DNA of 64,000 nucleotides from Cordylochernes scorpioides (lineage: Eukaryota; Arthropoda; Arachnida; Pseudoscorpiones; Chernetidae), in assembly GCA_030710605.1 (NCBI GenBank), contig CP092874.1:20995880-21059879 (forward strand), read 5' to 3'. Every line of letters starts with the position of its first letter. The first letter of the stretch is position 1. Of the stretch, positions 4,798 through 35,690 are shown one piece after another. The position numbers and the translations under genes are program-made. The notes under the pieces were generated by a model. The model made no database searches. It was not told where the DNA came from and saw only the letters and a list, made by a program, of their open reading frames with translations.

Positions 4798-5261
4798 ATG
4801 TAAATATGTTTAGGAAGTTTGAACTATATGCTGGTTATAGTTGGCACTTCATCTATGAGGTATTCTTATAAATAAAGATATTTTCTAACAATATATATTG
4901 TTATAACACTATTTCATAAAGTTAATAAAAATTAATTAATAAGGATGGGAATTTTAACAGGAGAAAGATATTGATCTATAATAATTAATTAATAAAAAAA
5001 TAGTTTTTTGAAGAGAATTTATTGAAATTTACTAATGAGATAAAGTTTTTACCAAATATCAGACTTCTAGGTGTGCCCTGGACATATTTTAAAAATCGTT
5101 CACAAAATATTTAAACGGAAAAATAGAAATTAGCCAATTCTCGAACACCGAGTTGTCTAAAATTTTGTCAACTTGCATTATCATCAGGTTTGAGCAAGTT
5201 TACCAAATTTCAGACTTCTAGGTTAAGGTTAAGTATATTCAAAATTACAATGTAAAAAAAA

Positions 5262-5590
5262 AAGTACAAATGTGATATTGTACTGGGATAAGGTGCATAA
5301 ATTGAGAAAAAGACATCTCCTTATCGTGCAACTGAAAGTTGCTAATGGCTTGCGCCATCTTTCGGAATAAATATCAACTTTGTTGAGGTACAGCTTGCAC
5401 CACGCTGATGAGGGCCAACAGCCCGAAACGCGTCCGTGGTCAGCTTTTCTTGATTAATCAAGAATGGGTATTTGGCCAATTCTGGAATAATTAAAAATCA
5501 ACGAGAATAGTTGATATTTATTCCGATAGATGACGCAAGCCATCAGAAACTTTCAGTTGCACGATAAGGAGATGCCTTTTTCTTAATAAT
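5262..5590. mobile_element. Foldback element with hammerhead family A, copy 1
   Basis: Inverted arms at about 5305-5381 and 5505-5585 share CATCTCCTTATCGTGCAACT and the GGCTTGCGCCATCT segment. A hammerhead sits in the loop. The element is non-coding and is inserted into RTE-like DNA. Relatives lie at about 14.2, 14.9, 20.8, 35.9, 43.9 and 58.4 kb. Confidence 0.75.
5399..5440 (+). ncRNA. Hammerhead ribozyme motif, family A1
   Basis: Stem I ACCACG 5399-5404, CTGATGA 5405-5411, stem II GGGC 5412-5415 and GCCC 5421-5424, GAAA 5425-5428, stem III CGCG 5429-5432, TC 5433-5434, stem I return CGTGGT 5435-5440. All pairs are perfect. Predicted cleavage is after C5434. The four-base palindromic stem III fits a dimer-acting minimal type I hammerhead. 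Confidence 0.87.
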
Positions 5591-6130
5591 ATATTGTTAT
5601 AACGACAATATTATAAAATTAATAAGGATGGGATTTTGACGGGTATTTTTTTTCTATAATAAAATTAATTAATAAAAAATCGTTTCAAAAAAAGCATTTA
5701 TAAAAAATCACTAAGGAAAATAAGTGCACCAACTTTCAGGCTTCAGGTGTGTGCCCTGAAAATAGATTCAAAATTGTTCATAAAATTTTAAAAGGAAAAA
5801 TTTAAATTAGCCATTTCTCGACCAACTCAGAAGTCTGATATTTTGTCAACTAGCATTGTCATCGGGTTTGAACAAGTTTACTAAATTTCAAACTTCTAGG
5901 TTAAGGTTAAGTATATTCAAAATCGTTCATAAAATTTGAAAGAAAAATTTGAAATTAGCCAATTCCCGACCACCCAGAATTCTAAAATTTTGTCAACTTG
6001 CATTGTCATCAGGTTTGAGCAAGTTTACCAAATTACAGACTTCTAGGTATTCTCTATAAGCATATTAAAAGGTTTGATTACAAAATTTGTGGACAGACAG
6101 ATATGGAAGCAATTTAAATAAAAACTTTAA

Positions 6131-6728
6131 AATTCGAAGCGAATTCCTTACTCAATGGAATTTATTAATTAAAAAATCATTGTTTTACCATATGACGATA
6201 AATAGATATTGAGAAATCATTGTTTTACCATACGGTAATAAATAGAGAGAAAAAATGAAATATAAATAACGAAAACGTAATTATTTATATGGGTATAGAT
6301 AAATATTTATCAAAGAGCATTATTTATCTCTCGGTATTTTTGTACAACAATTCATCTGGCAACACTGTACGACAAGCATTTCATCTTAGTGCAAATAAAA
6401 AGGCAGACGATGATAAAAGACCAGACGTATTGATTGGTAGAAATCCTTTTTTTTTTTTGTAAACTTCTAGAATCTTCTATTATTCATTTTGAAATGGAAA
6501 AAACTTCTTCTTTTCATCAATTTAATTTTCTATAGAGGGAGCTGATTTTTTGTATTATTAGAAAAAAATTAATACATCGTTAATTGCATGGAGCAGAAAT
6601 AAATTAAAAATGTGTACATTTTAATTATAAGATATCTATTTTTTCTCTTTTATTTGGAATAATATGTGCATAGTGTGAGCTCAAATTTATAAGATACATG
6701 TATGTTTTATTTTATTTTATTATTACAG
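6131..6728. other. AT-rich DNA, no gene
   Basis: No coding signal. A short direct duplication (AAATCATTGTTTTACCATA) occurs twice near 6175 and 6220. The stretch just before 6729 is a T-rich tract ending in ATTACAG. Confidence 0.4.
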
Positions 6729-6970
6729 AAGCACGAAGTCTATCAGACGATTTTGCTATATTAGAATTATTTACATATATATCTTTAATTGTTTACACGA
6801 TGAATTAGTAGTGATGTATAAATCTGTGTACAAATTGCTCTAAACTTGCCAATGTTTTCATAAAATTGAGTATATATAGAAAGATGATTTGGCATTATGT
6901 CAAAGTAAGCAAGTACAATTTGGTTAATTAGAGGGCAAGCCAACACTCTGGTGTATCAACATCTAGACAT
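6729..6970 (+). other. Duplicated segment, possible terminal exon, copy 1
   Basis: A pyrimidine-rich tract ending in TTATTACAG is followed by a short open frame, 6729-6764, reading KHEVYQTILLY and a stop. The next about 200 bp match the copy at 16287-16720 closely. The small frame keeps its reading and stop in both copies, which would fit duplicated 3' terminal exons with 3' UTRs. A non-coding dispersed repeat is equally possible. Confidence 0.35.
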
Positions 6971-7277
6971 ATAAAAAAAGATAATTCAATATAAATTATT
7001 AAAATAAGGACAGTGAAATCTCACGATATGGCATGTTTATAACACATATCATATGCCTAGGGGAAATATCAGATACCGTGTTGATAGAGGTTTGATGGTG
7101 GATGTCCCGTTAGCTAGTAAATTGATGATATACTTTACTGTTTATATACAAACAGAATGTAGAAGTATCTTTCTCACTAATGTCAAAATATCATTTCATT
7201 CTGATCGATTTGGTTGCAAATTATACATTATCTCAACTCTTGTCAAAATCTAAACACGTTTGGTAAGCACTAAACCT
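6971..7277. other. Unique flank of the satellite, nothing recognised
   Basis: AT-rich with no gene, up to the first 60-bp repeat unit at 7278. Confidence 0.4.
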
Positions 7278-10200
7278 CTACAATAGGAAGGATACAGAGA
7301 AGATCAGCATGGCCCCTGTGATACCACGGTACAACTACTACAATAGGAAGGATACAGAGAAGATCAGCATGGCCCCTGTGATACCACGGTACAACTACTA
7401 CAATAGGAAGGATACAGAGAAGATCAGCATGGCCCCTGTGATACCACGGTACAACTACCACAATAGGAAGGATACAGAGAAGATCAGCATGGCCCCTGTG
7501 ATACCACGGTACAACTACTACAATAGGAAGGATACAGAGAAGATCAGCATGGCCCCTGTGATACCACGGTACAACTACTACAATAGGAAGGATACAGAGA
7601 AGATCAGCATGGCCCCTGTGATACCACGGTACAACTACTACAATAGGAAGGATACAGAGAAGATCAGCATGGCCCCTGTGATACCACGGTACAACTACTA
7701 CAATAGGAAGGATACAGAGAAGATTAGCATTGCCCCTGTGATACCGCGGTACAACTACTACAATAGGAAGGATACAGAGAAGATCAGCATGGTCCCTGTG
7801 ATACCACGGTACAACTACTACAATAGGAAGGATACAGAGAAGATCAGCATGGCCCCTGTGATACCACGGTACAACTACTACAATAGGAAGGATACAGAGA
7901 AGATCAGCATGGCCCCTGTGATACCACGGTACAACTACTACAATAGGAAGGATACAGAGAAGATCAGCATGGTCCCTGTGATACCACGGTACAAATACTA
8001 CAATAGGAAGGATACAGAGAAGATTAGCATTGCCCCTGTGATACCGCGGTACAACTACTACAATAGGAAGGATACAGAGAAGATCAGCATGGTCCCTGTG
8101 ATACCACGGTACAACTACTACAATAGGAAGGATACAGAGAAGATCAGCATGGCCCCTGTGATACCACGGTACAACTACTACAATAGGAAGGATACAGAGA
8201 AGATCAGCATGGTCCCTGTGATACCACGGTACAACTACTACAATAGGAAGGATACAGAGAAGATCAGCATGGTCCCTGTGATACCACGGTACAACTACTA
8301 CAATAGGAAGGATACAGAGAAGATTAGCATTGCCCCTGTGATACCGCGGTACAACTACTACAATAGGAAGGATACAGAGAATATCAGCATGGTCCCTGCG
8401 ATACCACGGTACAACTACTACAATAGGAAGGATACAGAGAATATCAGCATGGTCCCTGCGATACCACGGTACAACTACTACAATAGAAAGGATACAGAGA
8501 AGATCAGCATGGTCCCTGCGATACCACGGTACAACTACTACAATAGAAAGGATACAGAGAAGATCAGCATGGTCCCTGTGATACCACGGTACAACTACTA
8601 CAATAGGAAGGATACAGAGAAGGTCAGCATGGCCCCTGTGATATCACGGTACAACTACTACAATAGGAAAGATACAGAGAAGATTAGCATGGGCCCTGTG
8701 ATACCACGGTACAACTACTACAATAGGAAGGATAAAGAGAAGATCAGCATGGCCCCTGGGATACCGCGGTACAACTACTACAATAGGAAGAATACAGAGA
8801 AGATCTGCATGGCCCCTGTGATACCACGGTACAACTACTACAATAGGAAGGATACAGAGAAGATCAGCATGGCCCCTGTGATACCACGGTACAACTACTA
8901 CAATAGGAAGGATACAGAGAAGATCAACATGGCCCCTGTGATACTACGGTACAACTACTACAATAGGAAGGATAGAGAGAAGATCAGCATGGCCCCTGTG
9001 ATACCACGGTATAATTTCTACAATAGGAAGGATACAGAGAATATTAACAGGGCCCCTGTGATACCACGGTACAACTACTACAATAGGAAGGATACAAAGA
9101 ATATTAACAGGGCCCCTGTGATACCACGGTACAACTACTACAATAGGAAGGATACAGAGAATATTAACAGGGCCCCTGTGATACCACGGTACAACTACTA
9201 CAATAGGAAGGATACAGAGAAGATCAGCATGGCCCCTGTGATACCACGGTACAACTACTACAATAGGAAGGATACAGAGAAGATCAGCATGGCCCCTGTG
9301 ATACCACGGTATAACTACTACAATAGGAAGGATACAGAGAATATCAACATGGCCCCTGTGATACCGCGGTACAACTCCTACAATAGGAAGGATACAGAGA
9401 AGATTAGCATGGGCCCTGTGATACCACGGTACAACTACTACAATAGGAAGGATACAGAGAAGATCAGCATGGCCCCTGTGATACCACGGTACAACTACTA
9501 CAATAGGAAGGATACAGAGAAGATCAGCATGGGCCCTGTGTGATACCACGGTACAACTACTACAATAGGAAGGATACAGAGATGATTATCATGGGCCCTG
9601 TGATACTACGGTACAACTACTACAATAGGAAGGATACAGAGAATATCAACATGGCCCCTGTGATACCGCGGTACAACTACAACAATAGGAAGGATACAGA
9701 GAATATCAACATGGCCCCTGTGATACCGCGGTACAACTACTACAATAGGAAGGATACAGAGAAGATCAGCATGGCCCCTGTGATACCACGGTACAAATAC
9801 TACAATAGGAAGGATACAGAGAAGATCAGCATGGCCCCTGTGATACCACGGTACAACTACTACAATAGGAAGGATACAGAGAAGATCAGCATGTCCCCTG
9901 TGATACCACGGTACAACTACTACAATAGGAAGGATACAGAGAAGATCAGCATGGTCCCTGTTATACCACGGTACAACTACTACAATAGGAAGGATACAGA
10001 GAAAATCAGCATGGGCCCTGTGATACCACGGTACAACTACTACAATAGGAAGGATACAGAGAAGATCAGCATGGGCCCTGTAATACCACGGTACAACTAC
10101 TACAATAGGAAGAATACAGAGAAGTTCAGCATGGCCCCTGTGATACCACGGTACAACTACTACAATAGGAAGGATACAGAGAAGATCAGCATGGCTCCTG

Positions 10201-12665
10201 TGATACCACGGTACAACTACTACAATAGGAAGGATACAGAGAAGATCATCATGGCCCCTGTGATACCACGGTACAACTACTACAATAGGAAGGATACAGA
10301 GAAGATCAGCATGGCCCCTGTGATACCACGGTACAACTACTATAATAGGAAGGATACAGAGAAGATCAGCATGGCCCCTGTGATACCACGGTACAACTAC
10401 TACAATAGGAAGGATACAGAGAAAATCAGCATGGCCCCTGTGATACCACGGTACATCTAATACAATAGGAAGGATACAGAGAAGATCAGCATGGCCCCTG
10501 TGATACCACGGTACAACTAATACAATAGGAAGGATACAGAGAATATCAACATGGCCCCTGTGATACCACGGTACAACTACTACAATAGGAAGGATACAGA
10601 GAAGATTAGCATGGTCCCTGTGATACCACGGTACAACTACTACAATAGGAAAGATACAGAGAAGATCAGCATGGCCCCTGTGTTACCACGGTACAACTAC
10701 TACAATAGGAAGGATACAGAGAAGATCAGCATGGTCCCTGTGATACCACGGTACAGCTAATACAATAGGAAGGATACAGAGAAGATCAGCATGGCCCCTG
10801 TGATACCACGGTACAACTACTACAATAGGAAGGATACAGAGAAGATCAGCATGGCCCCTGTGATAACACGGTACAACTACTACAATAGGAAGGATACAGA
10901 GAAGATCAGCATGGCCCCTGTGATAACACGGTACAACTACTACAATAGGAAGGATACCGAGAAGATCAGCATGGTCCCTGTGATACCACGGTACAACTAC
11001 TACAATAGGAAGGATACAGAGAAGATCAGCATGGCTCCAGTGATACCACGGTACAACTACTACAATAGGAAGGATACAGACAAGATCAGCATGGTCCCTG
11101 TGATACCACGGTACAACTACTACGATAGGAAGGATACAGAGAAGATTAGCATGGTCCCTGTGATACCACGGTACAACTACTACAATAGGAAGGATACAGA
11201 GATGATTATCATGGGCCCTGTGATACTACGGTACAACTACTACAATAGGAAGGATACAGAGAATATCAACATGGCCCCTGTGATACCGCGGTACAACTCC
11301 TACAATAGGAAGGATACAGAGAAGATTAGCATGGGCCCTGTGATACCACGGTACAACTACTACAATAGGAAGGATACAGAGAAGATCAGCATGGCCCCTG
11401 TGATACCACGGTACAACTACTACAATAGGAAGGATACAGAGAAGATCAGCATGGGCCCTGTGTGATACCACGGTACAACTACTACAATAGGAAGGATACA
11501 GAGAAGATTAGCATGGGCCCTGTGATACCACGGTACAACTACTACAATAGGAAGGATACAGAGAAGATCAGCATGGCCCCTGTGATACCACGGTACAACT
11601 ACTACAATAGGAAGGATACAGAGAAGATCAGCATGGGCCCTGTGTGATACCACGGTACAACTACTACAATAGGAAGGATACAGAGAAGATCAGCATGGCC
11701 CCTTTGATACCACGGTACAACTACTACAATAGGAAGGATACAGAGAAGATCAGCATGTCCCCTGTGATACCACGGTACAACTACTACAATAGGAAGGATA
11801 CAGAGAAGATCAGCATGGTCCCTGTTATACCACGGTACAACTACTACAATAGGAAGGATACAGAGAAAATCAGCATGGGCCCTGTGATACCACGGTACAA
11901 CTACTACAATAGGAAGGATACAGAGAAGATCAGCATGGGCCCTTTGATACCACGGTACAACTACTACAATAGGAAGAATACAAAGAAGATCAGCATGGCC
12001 CCTGTGATACCACGGTACAACTACTACAATAGGAAGGATACAGAGAAGATCAGCATGGCTCCTGTGATACCACGGTACAACTACTACAATAGGAAGGATA
12101 CAGAGAAGATCATCATGGCCCCTGTGATACCACGGTACAACTACTACAATAGGAAGGATACAGAGAAGATCAGCATGGCCCCTGTGATACCACGGTACAA
12201 CTACTACAATAGGAAGGATACAGAGAAGATCAGCATGGTCTCTGTGATACCACGGTACAACTACTACAATAGGAAGGATACAGAGAAGATCAGTATGGCC
12301 CCTGTACTACCACGGTACAACTATTACAATAGGAAGGATACAGAGAAGATCAGCATGGCCCCTGTGATACCACGGTACAAATACTACAATAGTAGGGATA
12401 CAGAGAAGATCAGCATGGCCTCTGTGATACCACGGTACAACTACTACAATAGGAAGGATACAGAGAAGATTAGCATGGGCCCTGTGATACCACGGTACAA
12501 CTACTACAATAAGAAGGATACAGAGAAGATTAGCATGGCCCCTGTGATACCACGGTACAACTACTACAATAGGAAGGATACAGAGAAGATCAGCATGGCT
12601 TCTGTGATACCACGGTACAACTACTACAATAGGAAGGTTACAGAGAAGATCAGCATGGTCCCTGG
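7278..12665. repeat. 60-bp satellite array, about 90 units
   Basis: Head-to-tail units of exactly 60 bp contain CTACTACAATAGGAAGGATA, AGATCAGCATGGCCCC and ATACCACGGTACAA. Point variants are common but indels are rare: a 2-bp TG insertion occurs at about 9541, 11461 and 11643. Since 60 is a multiple of three, several frames on both strands stay open for hundreds of codons (7309-9543 on +). In-frame TAA variants occur near 10458, 10518 and 10758. Both strands being open, and the shifts, argue against a real protein. Higher-order repeats are described in the findings. Confidence 0.95.
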
Positions 12666-13140
12666 CCCAGGATGACGAACCAAATCGCGAAGGTTTCCCA
12701 GTAGGGGGAGAGCTGAGGTTAAAACTGCCGAGTCAGGGGTCCAACTGGGGGTGTAGGGGTCCGTGATAGATGAGCCCAACGTGCTCACCAATTCATTAGT
12801 CCCGAGCTCCGCCCTTTCTGGATTTTCAAGTCCATTTGTCTTATTTCTTTTCCCAGAGCCCAAAGTTCTTTGGCTTAGGGACTTGTGGTTTCCTCTTTTT
12901 TCTTCATTATATATGGACCACCTAATTGGGATTACCTTTTAGTTTATTTTCACCCTTTTCCCGTCTAAAATTTGTTAGGAGTATAATGGTAGTTCTTTTA
13001 TTGTTGGCGTGTAAAAATATCTTTCTTGAATGCCACTGTTCTCACTTTCATATTGTCGGAACAAAATTACATATATTTATTTACAGTATGAGTCATTACT
13101 CTCTAATAAACCATGATTATCATTTCCTGGTACTAAATGT
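12666..13140. other. GC-richer flank of the satellite, unrecognised
   Basis: From 12666 to about 12890 the base composition is clearly less AT-rich than the surroundings. It gives an open minus frame (12624-12863) with no recognisable domain. It could be a fragment of an element or an untranslated exon. The rest to 13140 is AT-rich with nothing seen. Confidence 0.3.
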
Positions 13141-13345
13141 GTAGGCATATGGATTGCTTACAGTACAAGCTGCCACAGCCCTCTACTAACTATCGTGGCC
13201 TGGTACTACATATGTAGTATTTAGTATGCTATGTAGTTAATAGTAATGTTCGAATAAAGAGTTTTGAAACGTTACATATGTAGACCTGTGGTGTAGTTAC
13301 AGTACAAGCTGTCACAACCATCATCATGCCCCGGTACTACATGTA
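13141..13345 (-). repeat. Two degenerate units of the 78-bp family
   Basis: ACAGTACAAGCTG, CCTGGTACTACAT and GTAGACCTGTGG are the reverse complement of the minisatellite at 27.4-28.7 kb, but more diverged. They represent an older, dispersed state of that repeat. Confidence 0.65.
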
Positions 13346-13780
13346 CACTACCAGATAAAAGAATCAACACAGAGAAGAAGACATATGCAACAGAGGAAGA
13401 GTTATGCAACTAGGAAATTTACAAAGAATGCCAACGACAATTACGTTGTGTGACGAAGCAGATGTGCGAGGACTGTACAAAGTCCACATGGCGAAACAAA
13501 CATAACTCACCTATTTACATATGCACCTATGCAAATTTAGAGACAATCGTTCTTATAATTATATACCAGTTTGTATCTTGGCATACATATTGGTTCACAG
13601 ACAATGTATTTTCAATATATAGAGAAATATCGAGCCCCCTAAAAGTTACATAAATGGAGATTTCAAACAAATATTCTATTTAAATATTCTCAAATTTCGT
13701 ATTTGCTTATGCGACAGAACAGTGGTCTAGCTTTTAAGTGAAAAAGTTCATCCAGAGTGTCTTGCAAAAAAATGGCTTGA
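13346..13780. other. No gene recognised
   Basis: AT-rich. The open frame at 13450-13653 has no recognisable feature. Confidence 0.4.
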
Positions 13781-13784
13781 TTAT

Positions 13785-13916
13785 CTCAAACTTTCGGGCC
13801 TTGAAGCTCTTCTACAAGAGTAATGTTAACTATAAACCTTTAATAGTTAACCATATATGGGTTATAGTTAAACTTACCTTCCTGTAGAAAGGCTCCAAGG
13901 CCCGAAAGCTTGAATT
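13785..13916. repeat. Short foldback
   Basis: AACTTTCGGGCCTTGAAGCT at the left is mirrored by GGCTCCAAGGCCCGAAAGCTT at the right with a loop containing TTAACTATAAACC and its inverse. It is a hairpin-forming MITE-like unit; it lacks the hammerhead core. Confidence 0.5.
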
Positions 13917-14194
13917 GATTAAATAATCTTTACAAAAAAAAAAAAGCTTTTCACTCAATGAATTTTTCTCTCGAATGATATCTATTAGGGATTATTGTTT
14001 TTTAGAAGTGCTCCAGATTCCTATAGACTGCATATTACCGTTGTAAACTGTACATATTTAAGGTAAACTCTTCAATTTAGATCATCAACTAATCACATCT
14101 CTATGTGTGATTTACTTCAATACCGTTAGTTATATTTGTTATGTAATTAAAGTAAGTAAGAAGGATGAATCCGTAACCAATTTAACTTTACATA

Positions 14195-14530
14195 TTATTT
14201 ATTAAGAAAAAGGCATCTCCTTATCGTGCAACTGAAAGTTGCTGATGGCTTGCGCCATCTATCGGAATAAATAGCAACTCTTCTCGTTGATTTTTAATTA
14301 TTACAGAATTGGCCAAATACCCATTCTTGATTAATCAAGAAAAGCTAACCACGGACGCGTTTCGGGCTGTTGGCCCTCATCAGCGTGGTGCAAGCTGTAC
14401 CTCAACGACCAAAAAACTGGTCCTTCAGGCATCCTGAAAAATCATGAAACGGGTAGTTAAGGCCAGAATTGCGTTAGAACGCTACACAATGTGAAAAAAA
14501 GCCTTTTTCTTAATTTATGCACCTTATCCC
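14195..14530. mobile_element. Hammerhead element A, copy 2
   Basis: It starts AAGAAAAAGGCATCTCCTTA and GGCTTGCGCCATCTATCGG, passes through the hammerhead on the minus strand, and ends near GCACCTTATCCCAGTACAAT. Orientation is opposite to copies 1 and 4. Confidence 0.7.
14349..14390 (-). ncRNA. Hammerhead ribozyme motif, family A2
   Basis: The motif is identical in sequence to the cores at 5399 and 20798 but on the minus strand: ACCACG, CTGATGA, GGGC/GCCC, GAAA, CGCG, TC, CGTGGT. Predicted cleavage is between + bases 14354 and 14355. The core is intact. Confidence 0.87.
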
Positions 14531-14904
14531 AGTACAATATCACATTTGTACTATTTTTCATAATATTTATTATTAATAGTAATTATACAAAACAAATCTT
14601 GGTATATATGTTTTACATTAAAACAACAAAAACAACAATTATTATATACATACAAGTTCCTTTCCAAACACGAGCTCATCTATAGCCATTGTTACTCTGT
14701 GTAATATTCCAACAAAATTTTGGCAGAGCAATGACCCGAGATTGAATCCCGCATTGAGCACTTTTTTTTTCTGAAAAATAATGGCTTCAAAAATAAGGCC
14801 TTTGATTCTTGCAACAATCCACTCCTACCAGTGAATGAAAGTTATCAAACAAGGTCATGGCAAATTTGTAAGTTCAAAATTCGAAAAGTTTTCTACAATG
14901 TGAA
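14531..14904. other. AT-rich DNA with a tRNA-like 3' half
   Basis: No gene. Around 14727-14770, GACCCGAGATTGAATCCCGC followed by a T run looks like a tRNA T-arm and Pol III terminator, the remnant of a tRNA-derived unit. Confidence 0.35.
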
Positions 14905-15112
14905 AAATAGTACAAATATGAAATTGTACTGGGATCAGGTGAATAAATTAATAAAAAGTCATCTCCTGATTGTGTAACTAAAAGTTTTTGATAGCTTGCG
15001 CCATCTGACGGAATAAATATCAACTATTCGTTGATTTTTAAATATTCAATAATTGGCCAAAGACCCTTTCTTTATTGACCAATAAAAGCTAACAACGTAC
15101 GCGTTTCGGGAA
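14905..15112. mobile_element. Hammerhead element A, truncated copy 3
   Basis: Family A sequence (CATCTCCTGATTGTGTAACT, GCTTGCGCCATCTGACGG) runs to CTAACAACGTACGCGTTTCGGG and then stops. The hammerhead is therefore cut within stem II and cannot fold. New family A end sequence starts again at about 15116. Confidence 0.6.
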
Positions 15113-15510
15113 TGAATTAAGAAAAAGGCATCTCCAGTACGTACAGTGTAGACATGTGGTGCACTTACAGTAAAAGCAGTCGGAAACTATCCAACATGAT
15201 TATCATGGCGTGTACTTGGAATAAGTACCACACGACGTTATTTATATACGAAGTAAACATGTTAAAAGGTAGAACTTCCTTAAGTTTTGTCCATGAGTAG
15301 TGTGTAAATAAGGAGTATTTCAAATTATATGTAAATAAGTCACTAATTTACATATTTAAAAAAAATAAGTGGAAAAATTAAACTGGAGAAACCGCTGGGA
15401 CGATTCACCATTGATGAGCCAAGCTCACCCATTAATTTTTCCATTACAGTAAGGGCAGTAAAAAATATTTTATTTTTAAAAGAATAATACACGTCTATAA
15501 TAGTTTCGAA
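15113..15510. repeat. Mosaic of repeat fragments
   Basis: In order: an A-type end (about 15116-15136), a single 78-bp family piece (about 15138-15222), a family M end (15258-15299, ACTTCCTTAAGTTTTGTCCA) and a family F fragment (about 15375-15505, GAAACCGCTGGGA and TGATGAGCCAAGC). Confidence 0.55.
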
Positions 15511-16286
15511 TTATCAAATAATCAGTGTCGACCCTATCATTTACTCCACGGTATATGCAAATAGGAATAATTTTCAACAAAAATATGGCCTAATCTTACA
15601 TATTGAATATTTAAATATCTTACGATATATTTAGATATTTAACAAAAATCTGATTTTTTAAGAAAAAAAATTCCCGTTTGTTAGTCTTTGATAGATTTTA
15701 CTTTCCCAAAGTATTGGTTTCCTTTTGATTTTTCTAGAGCTTTTCAGTGTTTCTCGAACTTTTTTTTTTTCGGAAGTTTTTCTTTCTGTGAAATTCTTTT
15801 TATTTTCTCTCTCTCACATCTTTCACCTTAACTATCCCTTAGAGAATTCTTCTCAGAAGATTGGATCATTTTCGGCTGCAATTTTTCTTTGACATGATTC
15901 ATCATCAAGGTGATAATAAAAGTTTTACAGATATTAAAGTTCTTTTGGCATTGTGTGAGATCATCACAATCCGTGGTCTAGTATTGTGATCATTCGATTT
16001 TAATTTTATGTGAACAATATGTACCCAGGAGTTATTTGAATAAGAGAAAAATTTGAATTTGGACAAAACATTTCTTTTTCCAATAATTTTTTTTTTCAAA
16101 TATTTTTATAAAAATATCATTTTTATAATGTAAACAATAGTATTTGCCTGTTGAAGAGCAATATTTGCTCGAAAGCTTGAAAAAAAAAAACCTCAAATAT
16201 TAAAAAGAAACTTTTTGCCAAAATTATAATTTTTTCTCTATTCAAAAGATTTTTTATTTCATTATATTTTTATTTTATTATTACAG
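15511..16286. other. AT-rich, no gene seen
   Basis: Low-complexity A and T tracts. The open minus frame 15905-16099 has no recognisable domain. A small hairpin AGAGCAATATTTGCTCGAAAG lies near 16155. Confidence 0.4.
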
Positions 16287-16720
16287 AAGCACGAAGTCTA
16301 TCAGACTATTGTGCTATATTAGAATTATTTACATATATGTAACGTTTCTATGATAATCTGTAACACGCCAATATGCAGAGGATATTGTTTTGCGTAAAGA
16401 AAAAGGAGAACAATCAACCGTCTGACTAAATTTATTTCAATCACGCGCCTTTTATATAGTTACAAATATTTACATAATTCCTGATAGCGTAAAAATTTAC
16501 ATCTACTAATAATTTATAAGCAGAATGTGACATATATATCTTTAATTATTTACACGATGAATTAGCAATGATTTATAAATCTGTGTACAAATAGCTCAAA
16601 CTTGCCAAAGTGTTCATAAGATTGAGTATATACAGAAAGATGGCATTATGTCAAAGTAAGCAAGTACAATTTGGTTAGTCAGAGGACAAGCCAACACTCT
16701 GGTGTTTCAACATCTAGACA
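16287..16720 (+). other. Duplicated segment, possible terminal exon, copy 2
   Basis: After ATTATTACAG the frame 16287-16322 reads KHEVYQTIVLY and a stop, one residue different from copy 1. The following sequence matches 6765-6970 but carries about 200 bp of extra sequence (about 16340-16535), present here or lost from copy 1. Confidence 0.35.
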
Positions 16721-17156
16721 GCATTCATATGATTTCATTATATGAATTATCTACTATATAGAAAATATACGTTTTAATGGTTTATATATCAATTTATTCG
16801 TCCTCTGATTGGCTTTTTGCTGTCATGTGACCTTAATCAGTCAATCAGCATTGTGTTAATTATTAATCAACGTGCAGGGCTTTTTAGGTAATAGCAAAAA
16901 ATGAAAAAAAAAGTCTCAACTCCCAGCAGTCTCCTAATTGATATTGTGCCCCTTCCAAAAAGAGACACTTCATATTTATATCGGTAATTACGGTTTAAAT
17001 TTCAGCTGAGAAAGAGCCTTGTCGAAAGGCTCTCATTCATGATTAAATAATACTAAAAAGAGTTATGATGTAAATCTTTCTTTTATAGTCCTTATCGAAA
17101 ACTGAAATCATATTCGATTACTATTCCCCATCCTTTGATCATATAGTCTATCTACA
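16721..17156. other. No gene recognised
   Basis: AT-rich. A short hairpin (AGAGCCTTGTCGAAAGGCTCT) lies near 17015. Confidence 0.4.
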
Positions 17157-17347
17157 CACTCATGGACACAACTTGAGGAAGTTGTACGTTTCAGCATGTA
17201 TATCGGGATAATAACTCTGAAAGATATTACAGTGACCTTTATTGAAGACACACGAGATAACCAAGTGTGAACAGCCTCTGTCTCCTTTTAAAAAAATTGA
17301 CGACTGGCGACAAAATATGAAACTTTTTTAAATTTTGTCCATGAGTG
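17157..17347 (+). mobile_element. Family M MITE, single complete copy
   Basis: About 190 bp bounded by CACTCATGGACACAACTTGA and the inverted AATTTTGTCCATGAGTG, with TA at the right edge. It has one copy of the internal GTGACCTTTATTGAAGACAC segment, so it shows the unamplified form. Confidence 0.7.
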
Positions 17348-17369
17348 TAGCAGATTCTAGGAAGAGAGA

Positions 17370-17460
17370 GTCAGTAATCACACCACAACACCAGCTTTAG
17401 AAAATTCGGAAAGCTTACTTAGATACCATGGTTTTGGCTTATGACCTTTGTCAATCCATA
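17370..17460 (-). other. Decayed hammerhead family B fragment
   Basis: CACAACACCAGCTTTAG and ACCATGGTTTTGGCTTATGA match the B element flank and core but CTGACGA and stem II are mutated. It is a fossil. Confidence 0.45.
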
Positions 17461-17924
17461 GTAGTTTCGGTTTGATCAGAGGTAAAAGAGATTTATGAAT
17501 TATTCTAAACTTATTAAAAGTTATTTACGTAGGCACGTTAATAGATAACGAATTGACTGAGCCAATTCAACGGATATCTCGTATGTATCTTTTGTTTCTA
17601 TTTTGACAGGAGAGATTTCGAATAAAAGAATATAAATAGGATTGAGAGAGAGAGCGAGAAAGAATCTTTTACCAAGAAAGGTCCACGTGTTGGAGCTGTG
17701 GTGAGTTAGTTGACGCCATACTAATGGAGTGGGGGGTAAAGAAGAGAGAAGCATTTCCCCAGATTCGATAAGAGAAAGGAGAAAGTATTCAACAAAAGAA
17801 TGGACAAAGGCGTCACGGGGGATGACCAAGAATACGGCCATTGTCCACTCACAGGTCGATCTCAAATATCGATCACAGATCGATATACCTGGACCTCACT
17901 CCCTCTCTCTGTCAACGGTGCATT
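17461..17924. other. Less AT-rich stretch before the 75-bp array
   Basis: Open frames start at 17729 and 17800 on + and run into the array. The unique part (about 17700-17920) is not part of any repeat visible here and may contain exon sequence, but no domain or splice boundary is convincing. Confidence 0.25.
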
Positions 17925-18515
17925 CTTCTACTCTGGGGACATTGATCCTACCGAATGTACACACAGATATTCGGTCTTGTTCTCTACTTGTTTGGTCTAT
18001 CCACTGTTACATACTTCCACTCTGGGGACATTGCTCCTACCGAATGTACACCCAGTATTTACCTGTTTGGTCTATCCACTGTTACATACTTCCACTCTGG
18101 GGACATTGCTACTACTGAAGGTACACACAGAATTTACCTGTTTGGTCTATCCACTGTTACATACTTCCACTCTGGTAACATCGCTCCTACCGAATGTACA
18201 CACAGAATTTACCTGTTTGGTCTATCCACTGTTACATACTTCCACTCTGGGGACATTGCTACTACTGAAGGTACACACAGAATTTACCTGTTTGGTCTAT
18301 CCACTGTTACATACTTCCACTCTGGTAACATCGCTCCTACCGAATGTACACACAGAATTTACCTGTTTGGTCTATCCACTGTTACATACTTCCACTCTGG
18401 GGACATTGCTACTACTGAAGGTACACACAGAATTTACCTGTTTGGTCTATCCACTGTTACATACTTCCACTCTGGTAACATCGCTCCTACTGAAGGTACA
18501 CACAGAAAGTATTTA
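17925..18515. repeat. 75-bp tandem array with a 150-bp dimer repeat
   Basis: TTGGTCTATCCACTGTTACA recurs every 75 bp from about 17993 to 18443. Two monomer types alternate: CTCTGGGGACATTGCTACTA with GAAGG, and CTCTGGTAACATCGCTCCTA with GAATG. GAAGG units recur at 150-bp spacing (about 18117, 18267, 18417). Two + frames stay open because 75 is a multiple of three; they are not evidence of a gene. Confidence 0.9.
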
Positions 18516-19458
18516 TTTGGTATACCTATTTTATCTATCCACTCTTACATGATAGTAAATTATGTAACAATCGCAACACCTAATTGTATTCATTGTTGAT
18601 GCATTCCGCTATTTTCAGTCTGTTAACGCATTCACTTTGCAGTAAACTCGATCCATCCGTTATCTGAAGGGAGCTGTGTGTATGTAGAAATTTATCTCAC
18701 GTTTCTTATAATTCTGGAAAAGCTAATTCTTTGAATATTGAAATATATAGTTATTTTCTGTGAAAGTTTGGAACATTCAATTGTCTTTAGCCTATTGACC
18801 ATTGCTTCGTGTTGTAAATTTTCATGTGCCAAGATCAATACCCTAATTATTTTTAATAGTAATTTCTCTCTCTCACCTATAAAAAAAAACCTGTATGTTA
18901 TAAATATTTAAAAAAAAAACAGTAAAAATAGATAAATGCTTAGAAAATTGTATCAATTTCCACCTATACAAAATCTAAAATAAAAGATTGAGCATTTAAA
19001 TCATTTGGAAATTCTCAATGCATTTTACAAGTTTGAAATGAGTTAGGACAACACTAATCAATATTGTCAAGTAGCTCCATCCAGATGGGACACCTGTCAA
19101 TCATCCCTGGACCCCGGGGGGGACCACAGGTGTGAGGGCTTCTCGGAAGCTGATCTGTAAATAAGGAAAACGAGACGGTGGCTGACGCCATTCATTAGGA
19201 TTATCTTTTGACTTGGGGTAAGTTGTACACACTCTCTCTCTCCCTATAAATACCCCTTATAATAAATTATTTATTCCCAAATTTGCCCTTGCTTTATTTA
19301 TCTCCGCGACAATATAATACGTTTTGAATCCTGGTCCTATATTTTGGCGGTTCCAATTAGAATTCTCATTAAGTTGTGAAAACATCAGGATTTCTAGAGT
19401 GAGAGTCAACAAATACGTAGTGGGGATATGGGAAAGTGCATGGTCGTTCTGTATAGAC
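18516..19458. other. Mostly AT-rich; one GC-richer island
   Basis: About 19045-19225 is GC-richer and not repeated in the window. It ends near CTTGGGGTAAGTTG, a good splice-donor match, so it could be a non-coding first exon. No reading frame is supported. Confidence 0.25.
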
Positions 19459-19646
19459 CAGAGGTCGGAAAGCTGCGAGCCACATGCGGCTCTTTGAATG
19501 TGAAGCTGCTGCTTTTTATATAGTTCCATATGTAAATATTATTTATGTGAGTACTATTTATTGTTGGCAAGAAAATGTTGTGGCTCTTTAAAAACATTGA
19601 AATTGTAATTTTTGACTCTTCCGAATCAAAGGTTTGTCAACCTCTG
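19459..19646. mobile_element. hAT-type MITE
   Basis: The ends are CAGAGGTCGGAAAGCTGCGA and TTTGTCAACCTCTG, which are inverted repeats with a few mismatches. CCACATGCGGCTCTTTGAA inside is characteristic of a widespread hAT non-autonomous family. Flanking octamers GTATAGAC and GTATATAG are an imperfect 8-bp target duplication, the size expected for hAT. Confidence 0.75.
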
Positions 19647-20255
19647 GTATATAGCAATGTTGGTGTTGTGACTTGATCATCCCTCCCGATTCTGTTAGAT
19701 TGCAGGGACAATAGAGGGCGTATATATTTTTGGTTTGTTTTGAAAGGAGAGGTATCTTTTTATTTCTATAGGATTGTTGGATTATTTATTTCACTAAAGA
19801 ATGCGATGAAAATTGTTCCAGAAAGAAAGAGAGAGAGATTGAGATTGAAACTGATTTATTACAAAGTACATATAAGATTATATAAGGTTAAATACAGAAT
19901 AAATATAAATATGAATAAATATGATTATAAATTGATAAATATATGAATAAGTAAATGTAAATATATAAAATAATTGATAAATATACATAAATATAAAAAT
20001 ATATACAAGGTCTTCATTGGTGGCGCCCTCCGCGGGAAAGACTCCGCCACCGATGGACTACGAGAGTTCTTTCCCACAGAGAGGGCAGGTCGATGTGATG
20101 GCTGGTGTTACCCAACTCAAGACCAAGATGGTACTTGTAGATGGTAGCCTTCGCCACACTTGTGATATTTATTGCCTCGAGATGGAGGCCGGAGAGAGAT
20201 AAGAAGTAAAAAATAAACTTATCCCTGGAAGCCTGATGTTTCAAACATAATATTG
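19647..20255. other. AT-rich, then a GC-richer unrecognised block
   Basis: About 19740-19985 is AT-rich low complexity. About 20005-20215 is GC-richer and open in both directions (20017-20202 +, 20014-20244 -) without a recognisable domain. It may be a fragment of a gene or LINE 3' region. Confidence 0.3.
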
Positions 20256-20700
20256 ATAGAAATAATTATGAATGATTAACACTTATTTTGGATCAAAAAT
20301 ATTTATTATAACTTCCAATAGTTCAATGAGGCTGTTCGTCTATCTTCCTCGGGGATTCTAACCTTGTAAACAAATTATCCACGGGGATGTTTACAAGGTT
20401 AAAATCCCCGAAGAAGATAGGCGAACAGCCTCATAGAACTATTGGAAGTTATAATAAATATTGTAACATAGTATTTATTTTAATTTTTATTATTTTTTTT
20501 ATTAACAGAGTGGCCGTTTTTTTATGTTTATATCTGGCGACTCTGTAAATTTCCATCGTGGCTTATCTTTTGTTTACAATTCATAGTTTGTCCTTTCCCT
20601 GAAATAATTGTTGTCTCCTCCTGAAGTTTTTGTCTTCCCTAATTTTCCACGTGGCAATATTTTTGATCCGAAATAAGCGTTAATCATTCAAAGTATTCAG
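20256..20700. repeat. Foldback with near-perfect inner arms
   Basis: ACTTCCAATAGTTCAATGAG through CCTTGTAAAC at about 20310-20372 is mirrored at about 20390-20450 with a loop near 20375-20388. Outer sequences (ATGATTAACACTTATTTTGG near 20268 and its inverse near 20665) pair as well, so a nested hairpin of about 440 bp is possible. Confidence 0.7.
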
Positions 20701-20742
20701 AATGGATTTCTCGATTTTCAACAAGAAAGAAGTATATATATA

Positions 20743-20990
20743 TGATTTTTCAGGATGCCTGAATGACCAGTATTTTGGTCGTTGAGGTACAGCTTGCACC
20801 ACGCTGATGAGGGCCAACAGCCCGAAACGCGTCCGTGGTTAGCTTTTCTTGATTAATCAATAATGGGTATTTGGCCAATTCCGGAATAATTAAAAATCAA
20901 CGAGAATAGTTGATATTTATTCCGATAGGTGGCGCAAGCCATCAGCAACTTTCAGTTGCACGATAAGGAGATGCCTTTTTCATAATATAT
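20743..20990 (+). mobile_element. Hammerhead element A, copy 4
   Basis: The element starts near TTTTTCAGGATGCCTGAA, runs through the hammerhead, and ends GTTGCACGATAAGGAGATGC. Only the right arm is present, so it is not a full foldback. Confidence 0.7.
20798..20839 (+). ncRNA. Hammerhead ribozyme motif, family A4
   Basis: ACCACG 20798-20803, CTGATGA 20804-20810, GGGC 20811-20814 with GCCC 20820-20823, GAAA 20824-20827, CGCG 20828-20831, TC 20832-20833, CGTGGT 20834-20839. Core and stems are intact. Predicted cleavage is after C20833. Confidence 0.87.
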
Positions 20991-22239: not shown

Positions 22240-22553
22240 TGAGACGTTACAGAAACAATTTTCAATTGTACATAAATTCCTTTAAAATGTTATTTTAATT
22301 TTTCATGTGTTTATTTTCATTTAATTTTTTATTCATCAAAAGTCAATGATGTACATACTAAATTAGTAAAAACTCAATAAAAACGATATGTAAAAATATA
22401 CATAAACAAATGGCTGGTAAAAGAAAGCGGCAATAAAGCGAGTTTAGGTAAAATGTCTATTTCATTAACAAACATTTCACTTTTAAAATAATAAACTTTA
22501 AAATTAAAGTTTTACAAAACTAAAATTAGCGTTTTAAAAATAAAAACGTGGCA
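22240..22553 (+). repeat. 5' LTR
   Basis: It starts TGAGACGTTACAG and ends AACGTGGCA, so it has TG...CA ends. It contains several AATAAA signals. Confidence 0.95.
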
Positions 22554-22555
22554 TT

Positions 22556-22573
22556 TGGCGCAGCCGGCAGGAT
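22556..22573 (+). other. Primer binding site, probably tRNA-Ser
   Basis: TGGCGCAGCCGGCAGGAT starts two bases after the 5' LTR. It is complementary to a tRNA 3' end reading ATCCTGCCGGCTGCGCCA, which matches animal tRNA-Ser. Serine primers are known in the Drosophila 17.6/297 group. Confidence 0.75.
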
Positions 22574-22585
22574 ACGGAAAAAAAA

Positions 22586-25500
22586 ATGGCGGAAAATCCA
22601 AACAACCGGTTGCAAAAATTCAACGGCTCGAAGTCGGCAATTAGGCCTGAGTCATGGATCAAATTATATGATTTTGAAAATAATTCTTTAAAGGAAGATG
22701 AAAAAATCAAAAATCTTATGTACTACTTGACAGATTCAGCACTTGAATGGTATGCAGACGAGATTATTTCAAATCCTGCAATAAAAAGATGGGAAGTTGT
22801 AAAGGAAAAGTTGATTCAAAGATTTGGTTCATACAACGCAAATCCAATTGTCTCAGCATCACATCGAAGATTAAAACGAGAAGAATCAATAGAAAATTAT
22901 TTTCAAGATAAAATTCGCCTGTTAAATCAAACCCATCTAACGAAGGAGGAAAAAATTTATTTATTAACAGATGGACTTCCAAATGATTGGAAAGATTTAA
23001 TTGTGGCTGCACAGCCAACTGACGCCACAAAATGGTTTCATATCGCAGCTTCAATTGAACAAAATAGGGCTTCAATTCAGTTTAAGCCTAAAAACAAAAT
23101 ACATCTCGCGACAAAAAATAATGATAATAAAAAAAATGTTTGCCCATTCTGGTGTCCAATATGTTCGAAAAAGGGAATAAAAATTAAACATTGGGTCACA
23201 GATTGTGAGGATTATGATCCTAATTATAAAAAGGATAGACCTAATCAAAACACTTCAGTGAAACAAGTATGCGGAGCCCCGGAATTGTTGAATGTAAGTA
23301 CTTTGACAAATACCCCTACACAAGGAGCTTTCAAGCTTATCAACATAAGTGTTGAAGTAAATGGAATTCCTGCGCAAGCATTTGTGGATACTGGTGCAAC
23401 AGTATCAATAATCAATTGGCGATTGTTCAAGCGAACCCGTCTTCAACTTCAACCAAATTCAGACATTCACATCAGCCAAGCGGATGGTGTTACCAGGACA
23501 TGTGGAAGCCTTCAGACCAAGGTAAGAATAGATAAACTAAATAAACCTGTAACTCTCCATGTAATGAAGAACTTTAAATATCCACTCTTGATCGGATTAG
23601 ATGTTGCATCTCTTTTTAATCTTTTAATAGATGTCAGAGACAAAACAATTTACACCAAATTTGATGGATTACAAAATCCAATTCTTGTAAATCATCTAGA
23701 AGAGATAAGAGAACATGAATTTAAAAAATTACTTGAACACAATAGGAATGTATTTTCTCAGCATGCCATTGATTTGGGAAAAGTAGCTATACAACATAAG
23801 ATCATCACGAAAAGTGAACAACCAATTTCTCTTAGACCCTATCGTCGTCCTCTAAAAGAGTATGAAGAGATAGCTGAACAAGTTAAAGAACTTCTCGAAC
23901 ACAAGTTAATAAGAATTTCAGATTCTCCTTGGGCATTTCCTGTTGTTATGGTTCCCAAGAAGGATGGAAATAAAAGGATGTGCATTGATTACAGACGTCT
24001 TAATGAGATCACACTGGATGACAGGCAACCCCTACCTCACATACAGGACATGTTTGATCGATTGCATGGATCCAGATTCTTCTCTACCCTTGATGTTGCA
24101 TGGGGTTATTGGCAGATCGAAATGGACCCGCAATCTATTCAAAAAACTGCATTCGTCACAAACGATGGTCATTATGAGTTTTTAGTGATGCCCTTTGGTT
24201 TAAAAAATGCTGCTTCAACGTTTCAAAGGATAATCCAACATATTCTAGGTGAATTATTATGGAAAGGAACTTGCTCTTTCCAAGATGACATATTGGTGTA
24301 CACGAAAACATGGCAAGAGCACATAGAGCTTCTTAATAAAGTTTTTGACAAATTAAGACAGTACAACATGAAATTAAAATTGTCGAAATGTATTTTTGGA
24401 AGAACTGAAGTAAAATACCTCGGACATATCATCAGTCACAATCAATTAAAACCTGATCCAGGAAAAGTAAAATCTATTCAAGACTTTCCAAGACCTGATA
24501 CTGTAAAGAAAGTTCGTCAGTTCATGGGATTGGCAAATTATTACAGAAAATTTGTAAAGGACTTTTCTAAAATTTCATTCCCCTTGGTTCGACTCACTCG
24601 GAAGAATCAGCCCTTCATCTGGAATGAGGAAGTAGAGGAGTCATTCGCTAAACTTAAAATGGCACTATCTACAAAACCTGTCCTTGCTATTTACAACCCG
24701 GACTACCCCTCTAAAGTTTATACAGATGCCTCCAAATATGGAATTGGAGCAATCCTAACACAAATTGGTCCAGACAATGAGGAACATGTAATTGCTTATT
24801 ACTCCAAAACACTGCAACCACACCAAGAGAATTATTCTGCTTATGAGATGGAATGCCTAGCCGTGATACAAGCAACTGATCACTTTCATGTATACATAGA
24901 AAACCAACCATTTGAAATCATCACTGATCATGCGGCGCTCCAATGGCTTTTCACCATGAAGAAACCGAAACCTAAGTATTTTAGATGGATTCTTAGTTTA
25001 TCCTCGAAATCATGTAACATCGTTCATCGTTCTGGAAAGCAACAAACTCATGTTGACGCCTTATCAAGACTCCCAGTTGTTAACATTGCAACTCAAGAAC
25101 TTCAAGAACACCAACAAAATTCAGATTTGAGTTTCTTGAAAAATTCCCACACTCACGACGGTGTGGTAATGATCAAACAAAAAGGAGTTTTTAAAGCAGT
25201 TGTCCCAAACTCGCTTACCAAAAAAATATTGGAAGAATATCACGATTCATTGAGTCACCCATCAATAACCAAAACATGCAAACTTATAACTCAATGTTAT
25301 TGGTGGAAAGGAATAACAACTGATATCAAGAATTATGTTCGATCTTGTAAATCTTGTCAACTAGTGAAGGTCAGACATCAACCAACTTTAGGAGAAATGA
25401 TCACTCCAACGTCAAATATCCAACCATTACAAATGATCGGTTGTGACACTATTGTACTGGGAACAGCAGCAGCTAACACAAAGCATAAATTCATTCAAGT

Positions 25501-25996
25501 TTTTGTTGATCACGCAACTCGTTATCTATGGGCATATCCCACAATAACAAACACTGCTCAAGCTGTCACTCAATGTCTTGATAAGATAATCAAATCTGTT
25601 AATTCGATTAATACTATCTTAACAGATAATGGCAAAAACTTTATATCAAAAGAGTTCAACAAATTTCTTTCTTTACAAGGAATTAAACACACATATACTT
25701 CGCCTTATCATCCTCAGTGCAATGGCATTTGTGAGAAATTAAATGATACGATAATGACAAAACTGAGAATAGCTGTTCTAGAGAAACCTAGATGTAAATG
25801 GAGCACATTGTTACCGCAAGTTGTCAAAAATTATAATTCCACACCACATGACGTGACTGGTTTTTCACCGCTTTTCTTAATGTATGGAATCGGTAATGAA
25901 CCCGAATTTGCCGACCAAACTCCAATTACAATTGAAGAAGCCAGGAAGAAAGCTAGCCTGCGGACAGAACAAATTAGAAGTAGGTGGAAGATTTAA
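22586..25996 (+). CDS. Gag-Pol polyprotein, C-terminus lost to a stop
   Basis: A single 1136-residue frame joins Gag and Pol. A capsid-like region covers residues 1-180. A zinc knuckle CPICSKKGIKIKHWVTDC (CX2CX8HX4C) lies near 190-207. The aspartic protease motif VDTGATVSII is near 266. Reverse transcriptase follows from about 410, with the catalytic box written FQDD near 566 instead of the usual YxDD. RNase H (VYTDAS near 710) is next. Integrase has an HHCC zinc region (about 885-925) and DDE residues in GCDT (about 952), LTDNG (about 1012) and GICEK (about 1049). The ATG is 30 bp past the primer site and has no competitor upstream. The frame stops at TAA 25994-25996, before the C-terminal GPY/F-type module. 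Confidence 0.93.
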   Translation: MAENPNNRLQKFNGSKSAIRPESWIKLYDFENNSLKEDEKIKNLMYYLTDSALEWYADEIISNPAIKRWEVVKEKLIQRFGSYNANPIVSASHRRLKREESIENYFQDKIRLLNQTHLTKEEKIYLLTDGLPNDWKDLIVAAQPTDATKWFHIAASIEQNRASIQFKPKNKIHLATKNNDNKKNVCPFWCPICSKKGIKIKHWVTDCEDYDPNYKKDRPNQNTSVKQVCGAPELLNVSTLTNTPTQGAFKLINISVEVNGIPAQAFVDTGATVSIINWRLFKRTRLQLQPNSDIHISQADGVTRTCGSLQTKVRIDKLNKPVTLHVMKNFKYPLLIGLDVASLFNLLIDVRDKTIYTKFDGLQNPILVNHLEEIREHEFKKLLEHNRNVFSQHAIDLGKVAIQHKIITKSEQPISLRPYRRPLKEYEEIAEQVKELLEHKLIRISDSPWAFPVVMVPKKDGNKRMCIDYRRLNEITLDDRQPLPHIQDMFDRLHGSRFFSTLDVAWGYWQIEMDPQSIQKTAFVTNDGHYEFLVMPFGLKNAASTFQRIIQHILGELLWKGTCSFQDDILVYTKTWQEHIELLNKVFDKLRQYNMKLKLSKCIFGRTEVKYLGHIISHNQLKPDPGKVKSIQDFPRPDTVKKVRQFMGLANYYRKFVKDFSKISFPLVRLTRKNQPFIWNEEVEESFAKLKMALSTKPVLAIYNPDYPSKVYTDASKYGIGAILTQIGPDNEEHVIAYYSKTLQPHQENYSAYEMECLAVIQATDHFHVYIENQPFEIITDHAALQWLFTMKKPKPKYFRWILSLSSKSCNIVHRSGKQQTHVDALSRLPVVNIATQELQEHQQNSDLSFLKNSHTHDGVVMIKQKGVFKAVVPNSLTKKILEEYHDSLSHPSITKTCKLITQCYWWKGITTDIKNYVRSCKSCQLVKVRHQPTLGEMITPTSNIQPLQMIGCDTIVLGTAAANTKHKFIQVFVDHATRYLWAYPTITNTAQAVTQCLDKIIKSVNSINTILTDNGKNFISKEFNKFLSLQGIKHTYTSPYHPQCNGICEKLNDTIMTKLRIAVLEKPRCKWSTLLPQVVKNYNSTPHDVTGFSPLFLMYGIGNEPEFADQTPITIEEARKKASLRTEQIRSRWKI

Positions 25997-35095: not shown

Positions 35096-35384
35096 TGATA
35101 AAGGTTGGCGTTCAGCCAACTGAAATATTGGTAAAATAAATGATATTTTGATCCAATATATGCCTTTTTAATTAAAGATCTAGGAATGTTTAGTGGTGTT
35201 TTTTATTTCCATATTTACAGACTCTCAGATGTTAGAGTTTCCATCGAGGCTATCCGAAGAGTTGAGATTGATTTAGAATATTTCATATTTACATATAAGG
35301 GTTCGGCAGACGAGAGATATAAACTGTCGATTCTCGACAGCTAGACCCGGGATCGAATCCCGTATTGGATACCTTTTTTCTGTA
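35096..35384. other. Hairpin repeat end and a tRNA-like unit
   Basis: 35096-35163 is the AAGGTTGGC hairpin repeat also found near 3.05 and 49.86 kb. At about 35300-35375 a + strand tRNA-like sequence has an anticodon-arm hairpin CTGTCGATTCTCGACAG, T-arm GGGATCGAATCCC and a T6 terminator. Its acceptor is poorly paired. Confidence 0.45.
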
Positions 35385-35690
35385 AGGGACAAAGGTCACC
35401 TCTCCCGTCAAAATAGATGTCAAAACCAGACGCCATCTATTGACCGTCACCGCAAACTAGCGGCCTCGAGTCGGTGACAAAGCCACAACACCAACTTTGG
35501 CAAACTGAAAAGCGTCCACCTAGAGACCAAGGTTTCGGGCTAATTGACCTCGTCATTCTAGGGCGGACTTTATTCCATGAGATCCACACGGGATGGCGTC
35601 TGGTTTTGACGTCTATTTTGACGGTAGAGGCGACCTTTGTCTCTTTAGATCAATATCCTCCCGGCAAAATTTCCATCTATACCTTTTTTT
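35385..35690 (-). mobile_element. Hammerhead element B, copy 3 with decayed ribozyme
   Basis: Inverted arms share CTCCCGTCAAAATAGA(C/T)GTC and its inverse, and GGACTTTATTCCATGAGATC is as in copy 1. The ribozyme at 35519-35562 keeps stem I (CCTAGA/TCTAGG) but has ATGACGA for CTGACGA, a broken stem II pair and CCAAGG for CCATGG. Loss of C3 predicts no activity. Confidence 0.65.

Follow-up and report, generated by a model that had tools for sequence, protein, structure and literature searches.

The pseudoscorpion Cordylochernes scorpioides carries a dispersed, hammerhead-bearing repeat, which we call family A. Three copies lie in a 64,000-nucleotide stretch of contig CP092874.1 (positions 20,995,880 to 21,059,879; this whole stretch is the window). 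The family A unit is 338 bp long, contains one type I hammerhead and, judged from its sequence, fits an animal non-LTR (long terminal repeat) retrozyme. We consider it probable that the insertion of this retrozyme is the work of a Penelope-type protein, with both target strands serving as primers, at two sites on a single RNA that is circular or multimeric. This reading draws on features that can be observed directly in the genome sequence: the unit and its arrays, two end sites (S and L) and their pairing, arms that are alike, target duplications, a covarying hairpin, and the same end pattern in Penelope-like elements.

Paired end sites and shared arms

Insertions were mapped onto the 338-bp unit, with positions counted from the hammerhead cut (U1 is the first base 3' of the cut). 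The mapped sample consisted of the first 100 listed places (87 loci, with eight duplicates dropped: L008, L015, L019, L020, L022, L023, L028, and L030) and the window. Apart from the window, all of these places are in the first 42.4 Mb of contig C1, which makes them a non-random sample of the genome. Segments below 88% identity or 60 bits and insertions touching the end of a locus were also left out. This gave 78 insertions of at least 88% identity, three of which are in the window.

The 3' outer ends of the 78 insertions form two groups, S (U147–160) and L (U188–209). The exceptions are one end at U70 and one at U96. Forty-one insertions are two-armed, with an inverted arm first and a direct arm last, placed head to head. 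The joins between these arms are spread across the unit, and arm lengths range from 35 to 1893 nt. S is combined with L in 38 of the 41 (20 L/S and 18 S/L); one is S/S, none is L/L, and two have other ends. Under even chance, an S/L pairing in at least 38 of 39 has P = 7e-11. This arrangement suggests that each arm is a separate product of reverse transcription and that the two were then joined head to head.

In the window, copy 1 (5247–5587, plus strand) has an inverted arm at 5247–5379, with its L end at 5247, and a direct arm at 5382–5587, with its S end at 5587. Copy 2 (14201–14558, minus strand) has a minus arm at 14201–14499, which holds the S end and the hammerhead, and a plus arm at 14501–14558 with the L end. 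Only one arm of copy 3 (20742–20990, plus strand; S end at 20990) was detected in the unit mapping. The initial annotation had described a foldback element with fixed GGCATCTCC arms. The sequence does not support this description. The arms vary between copies, and copy 3 has no detected second arm; GGCATCTCC is part of the stem and loop that surround the S start.

Opposite arms of 40 two-armed insertions share 49% of their non-consensus bases, compared to a mean of 8.3% and a maximum of 18% for permuted partners (1000 permutations). The divergence between an insertion's own arms is 2.3%, versus 4.45% for permuted partners, and in 30 of 36 cases an arm is nearer to its own partner than to the median stranger. 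When all pairs are counted, opposite arms differ by 1.6%, successive rounds in one arm by 0.8%, and strangers by 4.4%. Thirty-three of 121 arms exceed one unit, the longest at 1893 nt. Taken together, the shared variants and the long arms indicate that the two arms probably had an identical or almost identical sequence as their template, and that this template did not stop at the end of the unit. The initial annotation had proposed a circular or multimeric RNA, and on the sequence side the overlong arms and the closeness of successive rounds relative to different insertions (0.8% versus 4.4%) agree with it.

We also considered reverse-transcription run-off at the hammerhead cut as a source of arm ends. 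No pile-up of ends was seen there: among 27 arms lacking the full searched core, one ends within 5 nt of the cut and two cross it. The 96 of 121 arms that cross the cut are a biased set and were kept out of the evidence, because copies were found through the core just 5' of the cut.

Of the 78 insertions, 38 (28 of the 41 two-armed ones) lie between direct repeats of 9 bp or longer, compared to 5.7% with shuffled flanks. This null matters because many of the direct repeats are themselves AT-rich. The flanks are 82% AT nearby and 67% further out. Family A thus combines the inverted arms, one-sided tail, short target duplication, and AT-rich target of a Penelope-type insertion.

A hairpin, GATAAGG-AGA-TGC...GCA-CCTTATC, has the S site in its loop; the L site is located past a second hairpin. 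In copy 1 the start-site hairpin is in the inverted arm at 5287–5325 (minus strand). The family fold has an energy of −20.9 kcal/mol (z −2.65), and two of 200 shuffles are equally good. In 21 hand-picked copies and relatives, pairing is kept in 84.2% of cells, versus 26–40% when the alignment is slid. Two stem positions are changed on both sides, in six and seven sequences (A-U/G-C and C-G/A-U). The count of double-change cells is 14, compared to a shuffled mean of 7.5, and none of 500 shuffles is as high; the number of hairpin pairs with a double change (three) is not above shuffles.

Penelope-like elements of the same genome show the same ends. A genome search for GIY-YIG domains gave 150 scored matches from 17,015 first-look candidates, several of them in head-to-head pairs, and some Penelope-like families are large in this genome. 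A Penelope-like ORF (open reading frame) from the genome has its best protein matches in C. scorpioides. Five head-to-head pairs were fetched, and three of them (L089, C14, and C22) are informative, full-length elements. L089 has an ORF for reverse transcriptase (RT) and GIY-YIG endonuclease, which the family A unit lacks, as well as a hammerhead containing GAAACGTC. The left arm of L089 stops within the loop of a CTGGCCG/CGGCCAG hairpin and its right arm ends past that hairpin. C14 and C22 have the same S/L ends as L089, with target duplications of about 12 bp by eye. The other two pairs were uninformative: L088 (6.5 kb; another GIY-YIG Penelope-like family, head to head, with 98.6% identity across 3 kb), the ends of which were not reached, and C3 (L096 and L097), without a recognized hammerhead. 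The window has two solo, two-armed Penelope-like copies, each with the L end on the left and the S end on the right. The copy at 55972–56272 contains its own hammerhead (56057–56089, minus strand) and has a TACAATCTACTATCTT-like target duplication by eye; the copy at 41824–42369 has other DNA between its arms. All five informative insertions, a small and hand-read sample, pair S with L as family A does. This shared end pattern points to a Penelope protein as the likely agent of family A insertion.

The hammerhead and its unit

The initial annotation reported three minimal hammerheads in the window. All three are present with every base it named, at 5399–5440 (plus strand, copy 1, predicted cut after 5434), 14349–14390 (minus strand, copy 2, predicted cut after 14354), and 20798–20839 (plus strand, copy 3, predicted cut after 20833). 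The motif consists of stem I ACCACG/CGTGGT (six pairs), CTGATGA, stem II GGGC/GCCC (four pairs, loop CAACA), GAAA, CGCG, and the U-C preceding the predicted cut. The conserved core, stems I and II, a U-H before the cut, and an open helix I are those of a type I hammerhead. The six-pair stem I stands as annotated. The term minimal is not quite right, because stem I is extended by a small internal loop and then an AGCU/AGCU outer helix. Nor are these three the only candidates in the window, as hammerhead-like motifs are also found at 44587 (plus), 30640 (plus), 1503 (minus), and 56089 (minus), with a weaker one at 56883 (minus).

A window scan for CTGAYGA-N13-GAAAC-NNG gave four matches, the three family A copies and 44587 (plus), versus 0.01 expected from dinucleotide shuffles. 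With up to two mismatches, the 30-nt core of family A occurs 22,163 times in the 2.62-Gb genome (11,071 plus and 11,092 minus) and the reversed pattern 0 times. These counts rule out chance hammerheads. One result stands against the motifs: none of the Rfam hammerhead models passes its gathering cut-off, which formally is the outcome that the initial annotation had named as a refutation. HH9 gives 26.5 bits (E 0.024) in copies 2 and 3, and its cut-off is 52. Hammerhead_1 is absent from the Rfam table of the window, which omits two overlapping clan matches of lower score. Searching the genome with RF00163 gave 0 matches, and the controls of that search matched nowhere either. By their sequence, the three hammerheads in the window are genuine motifs, and the retrozyme that carries them is of a kind already known.

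The unit has a GC content of 0.41 and no ORF; its longest stop-free run, read as a circle, is 49 amino acids. Together with the genome-wide core matches, this bears out the annotated view of the elements as non-coding and dispersed. L021 is a head-to-tail array within an AT microsatellite, with five hammerheads at 338 bp spacing. Family A thereby has the form of an animal non-LTR retrozyme, a tandem, ORF-less repeat of about 150–450 bp with one hammerhead per unit and low GC.

Helix III of family A is an A-U pair plus CGCG without a loop, and it is not closed within one molecule. The sequence ACGCGU is palindromic over six bases, so two copies must pair for helix III to form in full. The calculated energy of the hammerhead dimer is −41.7 kcal/mol, versus −17.0 kcal/mol for a single monomer lacking helix III. 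The dimer of lowest energy (−42.2 kcal/mol) has a different fold, within 0.5 kcal/mol of the hammerhead dimer. For the second hammerhead family of the window (30640, plus strand), the predicted dimer is the hammerhead dimer itself. Single-strand folds of the family A hammerhead are not better than shuffles. The suggestion in the initial annotation that such a small-stem hammerhead works as a dimer is consistent with the palindrome and with these energies. Family A would be transcribed, cleave itself, and occur as circles; on the dimer model, tandem transcripts would cut themselves and a single-unit circle would stay closed.

Small Penelope-like hammerhead variants reportedly cleave as dimers. 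Their helix III, like that of family A, is described as a palindrome without a proper loop (PMC7761336 and the titles of Lunse 2017 and Cervera and de la Pena 2014). Unlike these variants, which are compared here at the level of titles and a review, family A keeps the internal loop and outer helix of stem I.

Explanations for the insertions

The mechanism that we favor would run as follows. Family A would be transcribed into multimeric RNA, from which cleavage would release units that probably circularize. A Penelope-type reverse transcriptase-endonuclease would cut an AT-rich target on both strands, and the 3' end of each target strand would prime reverse transcription internally on the RNA. 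One strand would prime at S, in the hairpin loop about 150 nt after the hammerhead cut, and the other at L, some 46–50 nt past S. The two cDNAs, from the same RNA, would run back through the unit, at times round more than once. The points at which synthesis ended would be joined head to head, and in many cases 9–15 bp of the target would be duplicated. We infer that one RNA molecule, rather than two identical ones, serves both strands.

We are evenly divided over a broader version of this scheme, in which Penelope-type integration is itself paired. A protein dimer would hold one (circular) ribozyme RNA, and the two strands would prime at two fixed sites 46–50 nt apart on it, so that a complete insertion would be short at one end and tailed at the other. 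Animal retrozymes would parasitize this reaction. The dimer-only hammerhead would cut multimers to units and spare the lone circle as a template.

Several observations weigh against Penelope-type insertion from two sites of one RNA. The S/S insertion, L033, is an exception to the pairing; since the 776-bp palindrome in which it lies (96.9% identity) takes in flanking DNA, its sequence suggests a later inverted duplication. L065 and L066 have a third kind of end. Thirty-seven of the 78 insertions are not simply two-armed (29 S-ended and 8 L-ended). A motif search of these 37 with three errors allowed found a possible opposite end next to 15, but also an end of the same type next to 10; by eye, about ten carry a short opposite end. 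L001–L003, three copies of one larger repeat (about 95–97% identical), contain two S-ended unit pieces separated by 249 bp of other DNA, for which this reading does not account. Gene conversion between arms could account for their likeness. The folding energy of the L089-family hairpin does not stand out from that of shuffles (z −1.15). The family A start region was not found in the seven Penelope-like loci checked (L088–L094), beyond short chance matches. In the lizard system as presented in Frangieh 2024 (PMC11167929), no difference in start sites was observed between the two strands.

Clusters of less than 88% identity comprise three S/L insertions (L074 and, in the window, those at 35819 and 58335), five two-armed ones with an unclear end, and 32 single ones.

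Family A could instead be the pseudo-LTR of an unseen autonomous Penelope-like element, with the copies being solo or tandem pseudo-LTRs. The end pattern equals that of Penelope-like pseudo-LTRs in the same genome, where, as noted, some families are large. However, the 33 of 121 arms that run past one unit do so without an intervening ORF, and none of the seven loci L088–L094 resembles the unit beyond short chance matches. We regard this explanation as unlikely. Insertion by the machinery of long interspersed nuclear elements (LINEs), with the inverted arms resulting from ordinary twin priming, is a still more improbable account. LINE-type elements are present in the window and in the genome, and twin priming also yields inverted-then-direct arms. 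In twin priming, however, the inverted piece has an outer end that is internal and varies in position, whereas both outer ends of family A fall at two preferred sites (S/L in 38 of 41). It is because the outer ends are fixed that we disfavor twin priming. The insertion ends displayed show neither a poly-A nor a simple-repeat 3' tail.

Two further explanations seem highly improbable to us. The inverted arms and flanking duplications could be those of a foldback DNA transposon or miniature inverted-repeat transposable element that happens to carry a hammerhead, the arms being terminal inverted repeats moved by a transposase. Such an element has fixed terminal inverted repeats and a constant interior, but in family A the joins occur anywhere in the unit, the arms are of very different lengths, 37 of 78 insertions are not simply two-armed, tandem arrays occur, and the two ends differ. 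We rejected this assignment. The likeness of the arms within one insertion would also follow if the second arm were a snap-back, self-primed copy of the first cDNA, and self-priming is among the proposals for Penelope palindromes presented in PMC3846280. This, too, is very doubtful, because one arm holds sequence beyond S: a copy of an S-started cDNA cannot contain the S-to-L stretch that is present on the other arm (the L tail is on one arm only in 38 of 41). The arms also mostly stop at different unit positions.

Other features of the window and relation to known elements

Three older or diverged relatives of family A lie in the window. At 35819–36156, a two-armed relative with S/L ends (78–82% identity) has a decayed hammerhead core. 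Another at 58335–58516 (77–87% identity) is also two-armed with S/L ends. The relative at 44467–44726 (plus strand), which is 72% identical to family A, keeps the core of its hammerhead at 44587, and its stem II is GCGT/ACGC through compensatory changes.

The second hammerhead family occurs at 1503 (minus), 30640 (plus), and 35384–35688, and in it a ACCATGGT palindrome replaces helix III. The copies at 1503 and 35384–35688 have inverted arms, and the ends of the family look like one short and one long (uncounted). The weaker motif at 56883 (minus) has three stem II pairs and partial similarity to this family.

A tandem array at 7258–12706 (plus strand) consists of units of about 120 bp resembling U6 small nuclear RNA (46 RF00026 matches listed), with long open stretches on both strands of up to 758 amino acids. 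Its sequence may represent a U6-derived satellite. The 1150-amino-acid open frame at 22544–25996 (plus strand) has protease, RT, RNase H, and integrase domains and is an LTR-retrotransposon polyprotein. Strong palindromes at 41304–41475 and 60032–60142 match plant and other microRNA precursor families below the cut-off; they are probably small inverted-repeat elements and not microRNAs.

Animal non-LTR retrozymes, as described in PMC7229834, have much in common with family A: repeats of a few hundred bp that lack an ORF and each carry a type I hammerhead, GC below 50%, arrays from dimers up, and thousands of copies. Their target duplications exceed 4 bp, as do those of at least 9 bp found here. 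That account presents them as tandem repeats; two-armed insertions and paired end sites are features of family A. Expression of circular RNA was demonstrated for these retrozymes (Cervera and de la Pena 2020, PMC7229834), whereas family A is known here from DNA.

In the lizard Penelope-like system as reported in Frangieh 2024 (PMC11167929), the protein, a predicted dimer, cleaves the two strands of the target and extends each of them, and it begins copying at two adjacent positions within the RNA. Penelope-like elements, in the descriptions of PMC11167929 and PMC3846280, resemble family A in their head-to-head arms, a tail on one inverted pseudo-LTR, AT-rich targets, two adjacent internal start sites, short target duplications, and a hammerhead motif. 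Family A differs in having no ORF. The near-regular S/L pairing and the variants shared between arms are features of family A that the relevant sections of these two papers do not state for Penelope-like elements. At title level, in mostly open-access literature on retrozymes with Penelope or twin priming and on head-to-head Penelope-like elements, no S/L pairing is reported. The evidence that a retrozyme is inserted in the Penelope manner, and that its two start sites are regularly paired on a template common to both arms, appears to be new.

The agent that moves animal retrozymes is left open in the accounts of PMC7229834 and PMC7761336, where Penelope-like elements are named as candidates from co-occurrence, in PMC7229834 as a strong candidate. 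The family A insertions themselves bear a Penelope-type signature. The S/L pairing and the shared variants would moreover bring the inverted pseudo-LTRs and the one-sided tail of Penelope-like elements under one simple model, the priming of both target strands on one RNA.

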